Source: Clostridiaceae bacterium BRH_c20a (GTDB lineage Bacteria > Bacillota > Peptococcia > Peptococcales > BICA1-8). Taken from it: a DNA stretch of 57,509 nucleotides. Below are positions 19,226-22,453 of this stretch, one piece after another (the stretch's first letter is position 1; the number at the start of each line of letters is the position of its first letter). The translations under genes were made by a program, and so were the position numbers. The stretch covers positions 1 to 57,509 of the forward strand of contig LADT01000075.1 in the NCBI GenBank assembly GCA_000961765.1, read 5' to 3'. The notes beneath the pieces were generated by a model. That model searched no databases. It saw only the letters and a list, made by a program, of their open reading frames with translations, and had not been told where the DNA came from.

Positions 19226-19335
19226 ATATCAAATACCTAAACAGTTGATTGTAGAATGGTAGGAAGTATTTTAGCTGTGGGTTTAAAATCTTTATAATGG
19301 TAGGATGGTAGAATGGTAGGGTGATAGCAAAAGGC

Positions 19336-19361
19336 ACACTCCTATTAGGAGTGTTTTTTTT
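19336..19361 (+). terminator. Leader terminator / candidate attenuator before aroF
   Basis: ACACTCC and GGAGTGT with a five-base loop and eight Ts form a strong terminator between the promoter and aroF, with no gene upstream to terminate. This arrangement suggests attenuation. No T-box sequence, TRAP-like repeat or convincing leader peptide was found; the leader instead has repeated GGTAGAATGGTAGG-like units. Confidence 0.7.
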
Positions 19362-19432: not shown

Positions 19433-20488
19433 ATGATGATTGTTGTAATGGAAAATGGTGCTAATCAGGAGAAGCTAGAAAAGGTATTGGAATTTCTTAA
19501 GGGCAGAGGATTTTCTCTGCATATCTCACAGGGTGTAGAACGGACTATCATTGGTGTTCTAGGAGATAAAACTCAAAAAGAAAATTTAGCTTTAGAAGCA
19601 CTAGATGGGGTGGAAAAGGTTATTCCTATTATTTCACCCTATAAATTAGCCAGCCGCGAGTTTCGCAATACAGATACGGTAATTAAGATTGGTGATGTAA
19701 CAATCGGTGGTCAAGAATTACAGGTTATGGCTGGTCCATGTGCCGTTGAGAGCAGAGAACAGCTTTTAGAGACTGCACAAATCATCAAGAATGGCGGGGC
19801 TAAGATTATGCGTGGTGGGGCGTATAAGCCACGGACATCACCTTATGCTTTCCAGGGTTTAGAGGAAAAAGGTCTAGAGTATTTAGCCGAGGCTCGGGAG
19901 AAAACTGGTCTTTTAGTTGTTAGTGAAGTAATGGATACCAGAAGTGTAGAGATAGTAGCTAATTATGTGGATATCATACAGGTTGGCGCCCGTAATATGC
20001 AGAACTTCCCTTTATTAAAAGAAGTAGGTAAAAGCAGCAAACCGGTAATGCTAAAGCGTGGCATATCAGCAACTATTGAAGAATGGATAATGGCAGCTGA
20101 ATATATTTTAGCGGCAGGCAATCACCAGGTTATCTTATGTGAACGGGGTATTAGAACCTTTGAAACATATACCCGTAATACCTTGGATTTATCTGTAGTG
20201 CCGGTTATAAAACACTTAACTCATTTGCCTATTATTGTTGATCCAAGTCATGCAACCGGCAAATGGCGGCTTGTTAATCCTATGGCAAAAGCTGCAATTG
20301 CTGCGGGAGCTGATGGTTTAATTATTGAAGTACATCCCGATCCAAAGGAAGCTTTATGTGACGGGCCCCAATCCTTAATGCCAGAAAAGTATTTTCAGCT
20401 CATGGGAGAACTAGAGCAAGTTGCAAATGTAATGGGCAGAAACCTTCAGGGGACATTAAATCTAGATAAGACTGGTACTGAAGGTTAA
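19433..20488 (+). CDS. aroF: 3-deoxy-7-phosphoheptulonate synthase (DAHP synthase)
   Basis: 351 residues. It condenses phosphoenolpyruvate and erythrose 4-phosphate, the first step of the shikimate pathway. Residues 1-70 form a ferredoxin-like regulatory domain, as in Thermotoga-type AroF. The barrel starts at [11 protein letters not shown] and includes [26 protein letters not shown] and [18 protein letters not shown] precedes the ATG; a second ATG follows at once. First gene of a nine-gene unit. Confidence 0.93.
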
Positions 20489-20490
20489 AG

Positions 20491-21324
20491 ATGTCTATTC
20501 CGTTAGTATTAGGGTATCTAGGCCCCCCAGGGACATTTTCTGAGCAGGCTGCCCACAAGTTTCAAAGCACTTATGCTATCGATGCTTTAAAGTCATTACC
20601 TTCTATTCCCCATGTTTTATTGGGAGTAGATAAACAAGAAGTTGGATTAGGCTTGGTGCCCGTAGAGAATTCTATTGAGGGAACAGTGAATGTTACCTTG
20701 GATATGTTGGCCAATGAGGTAAATTTATTTATTCAAGGGGAATTAGTTTTAGAGATCAAGCATTGCCTTCTTACCTTAGAAGGTGATAAGGAAAAAATTC
20801 GCTTTATTTATTCTCATCCCCAGGCTTTAGCTCAGTGCCGCAGATTTTTATTAGATAATTTTCCTAATGCCAGTTGCATTCCTATGGAAAGTACTGCCCA
20901 AGCAGCACTATTAGTAAAGGAGTCAGCAGGGGGGGGAGCGGCTTTAGGTTCTCTCAGCGCTGCTAGGGAATATGGCCTAGATGTTAAAAATAGTGATGCA
21001 AGCGATTTCCCTGGCAACAAAACCCGCTTTCTAGTTGTGGGTAAAAAGAGCTTTTCTTTTAAAACGCCTGAAAAATCATCTCTTTGTTTGGCTGTAAATG
21101 AAAATATACCAGGAGTGCTCCATGAAATTTTAGGTGAATTTGCTAGGGAACAAATAGACTTGACGAAAATTGAATCCCGACCAACTAAAAGAGAGCTAGG
21201 GGACTATCTCTTTTTTCTGGATTGCAGGGCAGACTTATTGGGAGAAAAAAAGGACGTCGTGGAACGTTTAAAAAAAATATGCAGGTTTGTAAAGGTTTTG
21301 GGATGTTATGGAACTGATTATTAA
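20491..21324 (+). CDS. pheA: Prephenate dehydratase
   Basis: 277 residues, a monofunctional prephenate dehydratase making phenylpyruvate. GYLGPPGTFSEQAA begins the catalytic domain; VPVENSIEGTV and ASDFPGNKTRFLVV (the TRF motif) are present. A C-terminal ACT domain has IESRPTKRELGDYLFFLDC, the phenylalanine-binding ESRP motif, so feedback inhibition is expected. It starts two bases after aroF ends. Its TAA overlaps the SD of tyrA. Confidence 0.93.
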   Translation: MSIPLVLGYLGPPGTFSEQAAHKFQSTYAIDALKSLPSIPHVLLGVDKQEVGLGLVPVENSIEGTVNVTLDMLANEVNLFIQGELVLEIKHCLLTLEGDKEKIRFIYSHPQALAQCRRFLLDNFPNASCIPMESTAQAALLVKESAGGGAALGSLSAAREYGLDVKNSDASDFPGNKTRFLVVGKKSFSFKTPEKSSLCLAVNENIPGVLHEILGEFAREQIDLTKIESRPTKRELGDYLFFLDCRADLLGEKKDVVERLKKICRFVKVLGCYGTDY

Positions 21325-21340
21325 AGGAGGAAGTTGAATT
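21325..21340 (+). promoter_or_regulatory. SD and ATT start of tyrA
   Basis: AGGAGG (21325-21330), seven bases, then ATT at 21338. No ATG, GTG or TTG lies in frame between the stop at 21335 and the ATG at 21407, which is downstream of the Rossmann motif. Confidence 0.65.
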
Positions 21341-22453
21341 GGGGTATCTGGACAAATAAAAAATATTACTATTATTGGGCTTGGTCTAATCGGTGGCTCA
21401 TGGGGCATGGCTCTCAAAAGAGTTATTCCGGAAATAAATGTTTGCGGAGTGGATATTAGTTCCAATACTATAGAAATAGGATTGGAAACTCAATGTATTG
21501 ATTGGGGAACCCAGAATTTACAGGAGGGAGTGAAGGCTGCCGATTTAGTCATCATTGCTACTTTCGTATCTTCCATCTCCACGGTTTTTTCTGAAATTGC
21601 ACCTCATCTTAAGGCCGGTTGTATTATAACCGATGTGGGAAGTACTAAAAAGGAAGTAATAAACAAAGTAGCCAGCCTTCTTCCAAACGATATTCATTAT
21701 GTACCGGGTCACCCTATGGCTGGTTCGGAAACCCATGGGATTACAGGTGCGGACCCTTACTTGTTTGAAAATGCAGTATATATTTTGACTCCTCTGCCCG
21801 AGACGTGCAGCAAATCTATTCAACTACTAGAGGAAATAATAAGTCTCATCGGGGCTAGGATTCTAAAACTTTCACCATATGAACATGATTTAAAAGTAGC
21901 TGCAGTCAGCCATCTACCCCATGTCATAGCTGCCTCCTTAGTAAATGGAGTAGGTCTTTTAGAGGAAGAACAGGGCGGAGTGTTTAAACTAGCAGCCGGC
22001 GGATTCAGAGATTTAACAAGGATTACCGACAGCCAACCGGAAATGTGGTGCGATATACTTTTGCATAATGGGCAAAGCGTGTTGGAAACTATCGGTTTAT
22101 TTCGCTCTGCCTTAGATGATATTGAAAAAGCTATTTATCATCAAAAACGAGAAGATATCTTAAACTTTTTTCGTAAGGCCCAACAAGAAAGGAATAAAGT
22201 TCCTGCCAAAATTAGAGGAATATTACCAGAAATTTACGAAATAGTGGTTACGGTTCCTGATAAACCTGGAATAATTGGTAATCTCGCTAATCTATTAGGA
22301 GCAGAGAATATCAATATAATAGATATCGAAATTATGAGGGTGCGAGAGGGTGATGGAGGTACTATACGTTTGGGATTTAAGGATATTACTTCTAGAGATA
22401 AGGCTCATAAAGTACTCCGATATGAAGGATATGTAGTAAAAGTCAGAAAGTAG
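21338..22453 (+). CDS. tyrA: Prephenate dehydrogenase with ACT domain (ATT start)
   Basis: 371 residues if read from ATT 21338. NAD(P)-binding GLGLIGGS at residues 14-21 sits on a IKNITII strand; GHPMAGSE and the helical dimer domain follow. A C-terminal ACT domain (VVTVPDKPGIIGNLANLLG) suggests feedback by tyrosine. The first ordinary start, ATG 21407, would remove the whole nucleotide-binding loop, so it cannot give a working enzyme. An AGGAGG seven bases before ATT makes AUU initiation the simplest reading. A sequencing error or a GTA-for-GTG change at codon 3 are alternatives. Confidence 0.88.
   Translation: MGVSGQIKNITIIGLGLIGGSWGMALKRVIPEINVCGVDISSNTIEIGLETQCIDWGTQNLQEGVKAADLVIIATFVSSISTVFSEIAPHLKAGCIITDVGSTKKEVINKVASLLPNDIHYVPGHPMAGSETHGITGADPYLFENAVYILTPLPETCSKSIQLLEEIISLIGARILKLSPYEHDLKVAAVSHLPHVIAASLVNGVGLLEEEQGGVFKLAAGGFRDLTRITDSQPEMWCDILLHNGQSVLETIGLFRSALDDIEKAIYHQKREDILNFFRKAQQERNKVPAKIRGILPEIYEIVVTVPDKPGIIGNLANLLGAENINIIDIEIMRVREGDGGTIRLGFKDITSRDKAHKVLRYEGYVVKVRK

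Follow-up and report, generated by a model that had tools for sequence, protein, structure and literature searches.

The infC genes of Escherichia coli and Bacillus subtilis start at AUU (PMC1805508), and in Staphylococcus aureus the near-cognate starts of cvfC1 (AUU), ccpN and infC (both AUA), all with extended Shine-Dalgarno sequences (SDs), give about 10% of the output of AUG (PMC13009471). The GTC start of Streptomyces sigR is repressed by IF3 (PMC5472188), and in a survey of IF3 the first two bases of the codon admit Watson-Crick pairing only (PMC10158994). SDs located 9-14 nt upstream also boost -1 frameshifts, and in one IS element a single SD plays both roles (PMC5009743). The tyrA gene of Clostridiaceae bacterium BRH_c20a is a probable further example of the known AUU-start genes; judging from its sequence and that of its relatives, we put the chance that it is translated from the near-cognate AUU at 21338 at roughly 0.6. 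Positions refer to the window, the whole stretch of 57,509 nt that was analysed, and the features on which the argument depends are as follows.

20491-21324, plus strand: pheA, prephenate dehydratase with PDT and ACT domains (Pfam PF00800/PF01842); stop codon TAA at 21322-21324
21323-21330, plus strand: Shine-Dalgarno sequence AAAGGAGG, with core AGGAGG at 21325-21330; conserved in the relative G003
21335-21337, plus strand: TGA, the upstream in-frame boundary of the tyrA frame
21338-21340, plus strand: ATT, probable tyrA start codon, 7 nt after AGGAGG; the aligned G003 codon is CTT
21338-22453, plus strand: tyrA coding frame, prephenate dehydrogenase with ACT domain, 371 codons counted from ATT; assigned by Pfam and orthologues
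21339-21359, plus strand: out-of-frame mini-ORF TTG GGG TAT CTG GAC AAA TAA (MGYLDK*), overlapping tyrA
21356-21358, plus strand: ATA overlapping the mini-ORF stop (ATAA), an alternative near-cognate start by re-initiation
21377-21400, plus strand: codons for GLGLIGGS, the NAD-binding motif, ahead of the first ATG in frame
21407-21409, plus strand: first ATG in frame (residue 24), the tyrA start expected from callers that accept only ATG/GTG/TTG

The gene is third in the cluster aroF-pheA-tyrA-aroA-aroE-aroC, is present in one copy in the 4.5-Mb genome, and is separated by 13 nt (pheA stop to ATT) from the gene before it. Pfam recognizes PDH_N, PDH_C, and ACT domains in the product (PF02153, 127 bits; PF20463, 90 bits), and the translation, which begins IGVSGQIKNITIIGLGLIGGSWGMALK..., contains both GLGLIGG (the GxGxxG NAD motif) and HPMAGSE (the HPMAG motif). 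The sequence-only reading had held that GLGLIGGS is encoded 5′ of ATG 21407, that no ATG, GTG, or TTG lies in frame between the TGA and that ATG, and that ATT 21338 is seven nucleotides past AGGAGG; the sequence and its translated frame bear out all three. Absent from that account were two out-of-frame TTGs within 21325-21410, at 21334 and 21339, and these matter for interpretation. We rejected a start at TTG 21334 followed by a +1 shift: its spacing of 3 falls outside the range scanned as usual for this genome, its SD run is 3, and no slip site is common to the window and G003. The leader of the operon (19248-19361; aroF starts at 19433) carries four copies of the 8-nt repeat ATGGTAGR (4 matches vs 0.31 expected), with a UAG every 8 nt, followed by a terminator-like hairpin, ACACTCCTATTAGGAGTGT, and a T run. 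It looks like an attenuator and matched no Rfam family; nor did Rfam find a riboswitch or T-box in either the operon leader or the pheA/tyrA junction.

Genome searches supplied 118 distinct TyrA loci for alignment, with residues numbered by the window tyrA. A canonical start (ATG, GTG, or TTG) is found at residues -8 to 10 in 114 of them, starts at residues 6-8 being common; the other four are the window, L002 of G003 (GTG at -9), and L014 and L027, whose canonical starts lie further upstream. The window is the sole locus of the 118 with no canonical start before the NAD motif, there being none before residue 24. Since 114/118 orthologues start canonically in so narrow an interval, the NAD motif must be translated. 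Beginning instead at ATG 21407, which is the first canonical codon in frame, would yield a 348-residue protein whose NAD fold has lost GxGxxG and its opening beta strand, both present in the relatives compared; this ATG has no SD, and the perfect SD at 21325 would be left without a gene, so that we regard such a start as most improbable. In L010 (contig C103 of G009), tyrA lies inside a 669-codon open frame and is possibly a TyrA fusion.

The relatives covered amount to 21 genomes for the order and five for the family, and tyrA is found in two of the family. No clear tyrA was seen in the three others (G001, G002, and G004), two of which are 96-98% complete; tyrosine auxotrophy or another route to tyrosine is possible in these. 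A class-level search brought up no tyrA relative nearer than G003, and no relative was found in the plasmid and viral collections searched.

The case for AUU 21338 begins with the SD. AAAGGAGG is an 8-nt perfect match to the 16S 3′ tail of the same genome, GGATCACCTCCTTTCTA; SD runs of at least 8 nt precede 30 of 223 sampled ORFs, which places the tyrA SD in the top ~13%. Its spacing of 7 to the ATT is the commonest in a 379-kb sample of the genome, where it accounts for 35 of the 123 starts that have an SD (spacing 8 comes next with 30), and no canonical in-frame start would keep the conserved N-terminus. The initiator tRNA anticodon arm and the 16S tail of the genome are normal, and RNA structure in the start region is nothing above chance. 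Under AUU initiation, the SD would position the initiator tRNA on AUU 21338 and the product would be fMet-GVSGQIKNITIIGLGLIGGS..., with the entire NAD fold included; IF3 rejects codon-anticodon pairs weak at the third base, which would keep initiation at AUU low, and the UUG at 21339, which overlaps the AUU by two bases and is itself well spaced, would divert ribosomes into a six-codon dead-end frame. Given both IF3 rejection and UUG competition, TyrA output would be expected to reach only a small part of what an AUG start would give. We infer from this arrangement that AUU is used, that output is weak, that it is modulated by the level of IF3, and that the overlapping UUG competes.

Further evidence comes from the rarity of the arrangement. 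We scanned the 379-kb sample for long ORFs in which a good SD is aimed at a non-canonical in-frame codon and at least 12 codons pass without a canonical one; the only intact genes that this brought up are infC and tyrA, both with ATT as the codon, and the one other hit, at an AAA/GGT codon, is a poor candidate. In this genome infC begins ...GGAGGTGACAA ATT ATT AGC. The infC start is ATT in G000, G002, G003, and G004 (loci L127-L130), with no ATG, GTG, or TTG upstream of the conserved part. Because the family already begins one essential gene at ATT, AUU initiation is plausible for tyrA as well.

The evidence against it comes from G003 (L002, contig C70; 68% identity), the closest relative and the only close one with tyrA. 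The sequence-only reading had advised looking to close relatives for an ATG or GTG at codon 1 or 3; G003 has CTT as codon 1 and shares the GTA of codon 3 with the window, so that in the one relative compared the alignment reveals neither ATG/GTG nor a conserved ATT. The claim that tyrA starts at ATT therefore stands in part: ATT is the best-placed in-frame near-cognate codon, with a strong SD, the modal spacing, and the precedent of infC, but it is not conserved. Given the demand for Watson-Crick pairing at those two bases in the IF3 survey (PMC10158994), CUU should be a worse start than AUU. AUU initiation fits the window well; G003 would need another device, be it CUU, coupling, or the GTG at -9, which is the sole upstream canonical codon and has no SD (run of 2). 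The same comparison bears on whether the ATT simply reflects a single wrong base in the consensus, or a strain-level mutation of recent date, at a codon that is truly or ancestrally canonical. ATT is one step from ATG, and we have a single tyrA copy in a single assembly, but close to its copy of the SD G003 likewise offers no canonical start in frame; a sequencing error is unlikely, since it would have had to arise at this very spot in two independent assemblies, and we give error or mutation together little credence.

Alignment of the two junctions shows i) TAAAGGAGG, identical in both; ii) a spacer of 8 nt in which most bases differ, the first of ATT/CTT among them; and iii) TTGGGGTATC, again identical. 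What the window and G003 have in common is thus the SD, the 8-nt length of the spacer, and TTGGGGTATC. Conservation resumes at the second base of the ATT/CTT codon, and so the identical stretch opens with TTG, not ATT, which counts against AUU, as does the unconserved first base; an out-of-frame UUG with a -1 slip, or coupled re-initiation, accordingly stay live rivals. In the rest of tyrA the two genomes agree at 36% of the four-fold sites, and three silent matches within TTGGGGTATC have a p of about 0.05, making the block mildly, not compellingly, more conserved than expected. TTGGGGTATC is also similar to the pheA N-terminus (LGYLGP), and we considered whether it is a duplicated remnant. 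In G003, pheA continues across the tyrA SD as far as a TAA that overlaps tyrA codons 7-8, tyrA being in the -1 frame of pheA; a 5-nt indel relative to G003 accounts for the earlier pheA stop in the window. The layout TTG GGG TAT ... TAA is present in G003 too, where it forms the 3′ end of pheA, and the ATAA there is the overlap with the pheA stop.

Ranked second, behind AUU, and unlikely in our estimation, is a start at UUG 21339 (8 nt after AGGAGG) followed immediately by a -1 slip of the glycyl tRNA from GGG 21342-44 to GGG 21341-43, which would lead from the mini-ORF into the tyrA frame. One SD would then act as both initiator and frameshift stimulator, since it precedes the shift site by 10-11 nt, inside the 9-14 nt stimulating range (PMC5009743); UUG is a frequently used start in this genome, and TTG at spacing 8 is common. 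UUG, GGG, UAU, and the closing UAA occur in both genomes, the identity of TTGGGGTATC behind a divergent spacer is as the slip would have it, and a single mechanism would cover both the window and G003. The slip ranks second because G_GGG, though GGG re-pairs fully with GGG in the -1 frame, slips poorly in E. coli, where even a strong pseudoknot does not bring it into the set of slippery tetramers (PMC4066793); in addition, no stable downstream structure was found by pseudoknot-free folding (fold z of 0.25 in the window and 0.91 in G003), and the wobble-site conservation described above is weak evidence. The next zero-frame codon is UAU (Tyr), and tyrosine shortage could raise slippage and hence TyrA, a role for UAU that rests on two related genomes. 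In its boldest form, which we think distinctly improbable, the family's tyrA would have no in-frame start of its own and would be reached from an out-of-frame UUG (or, in G003, by ribosomes translating pheA) through GGG and a -1 slip at a hungry UAU; if true, tyrosine shortage would directly switch on a tyrosine enzyme by frameshifting. AUU initiation and slippage both predict the N-terminus fMet-Gly-Val, and an invariant TTGGGGTAT behind a varying base across further species of the family is the pattern that would favour slippage.

Coupled re-initiation, which we rate below the simple slip and also improbable, would occur at AUA 21356 once the UAA at 21357-59 has ended the mini-ORF (in the window) or pheA (in G003), the ribosome moving back one base within AUAA to make fMet-KNITIIG. 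The AUAA overlap is present in both genomes, a protein begun there would match in N-terminal length the many orthologues that start at residues 6-8, and RRF-depleted cells restart at non-canonical codons past stops (PMC2268962); but the AUA is without an SD (run of 3), such re-initiation is inefficient when no SD is present (PMC2268962), and ATA-AAA is forced by a conserved Ile-Lys, so that the overlap may be incidental.

The absence of a canonical start from two diverged genomes suggests that translation of the family's tyrA may be held low or controlled. If AUU is the codon used, a biosynthetic gene would join the few bacterial genes other than infC in which a near-cognate start, and through it IF3, determines how much product is made. 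Gene finders confined to ATG, GTG, and TTG would cut TyrA short of its NAD site, and the true N-terminus is therefore probably mis-annotated.

How does this tyrA compare with known systems? Like the -1 cassettes of the dnaX and IS3 type, it has an SD 10-11 nt before a possible slip site (PMC5009743), and the layout in G003, where tyrA, with no good start of its own, lies in the -1 frame of pheA and overlaps it, is IS3-like; it differs in that the G_GGG slip site is poor and a downstream structure was not found. In Streptomyces sigR, as proposed for tyrA, IF3, acting at a non-canonical start, restricts one of the operon's products (PMC5472188), although there the codon is GTC, the gene is a regulator, and the effect has been demonstrated by experiment. 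S. aureus cvfC1 (AUU), ccpN, and citZ (both AUA) share with tyrA a near-cognate start and a strong SD in a Gram-positive organism, metabolic genes included (PMC13009471); those starts were established by ribosome profiling and reporters, and the ccpN and cvfC1 codons are conserved among relatives. Finally, infC, in this organism as in E. coli and B. subtilis, is like tyrA in having AUU after a strong SD and no canonical start 5′ of the conserved N-terminus; it differs in that its AUU, a widely conserved codon, lets IF3 feed back on its own synthesis, whereas for tyrA a link to IF3 is not evident and the one close relative has CTT.
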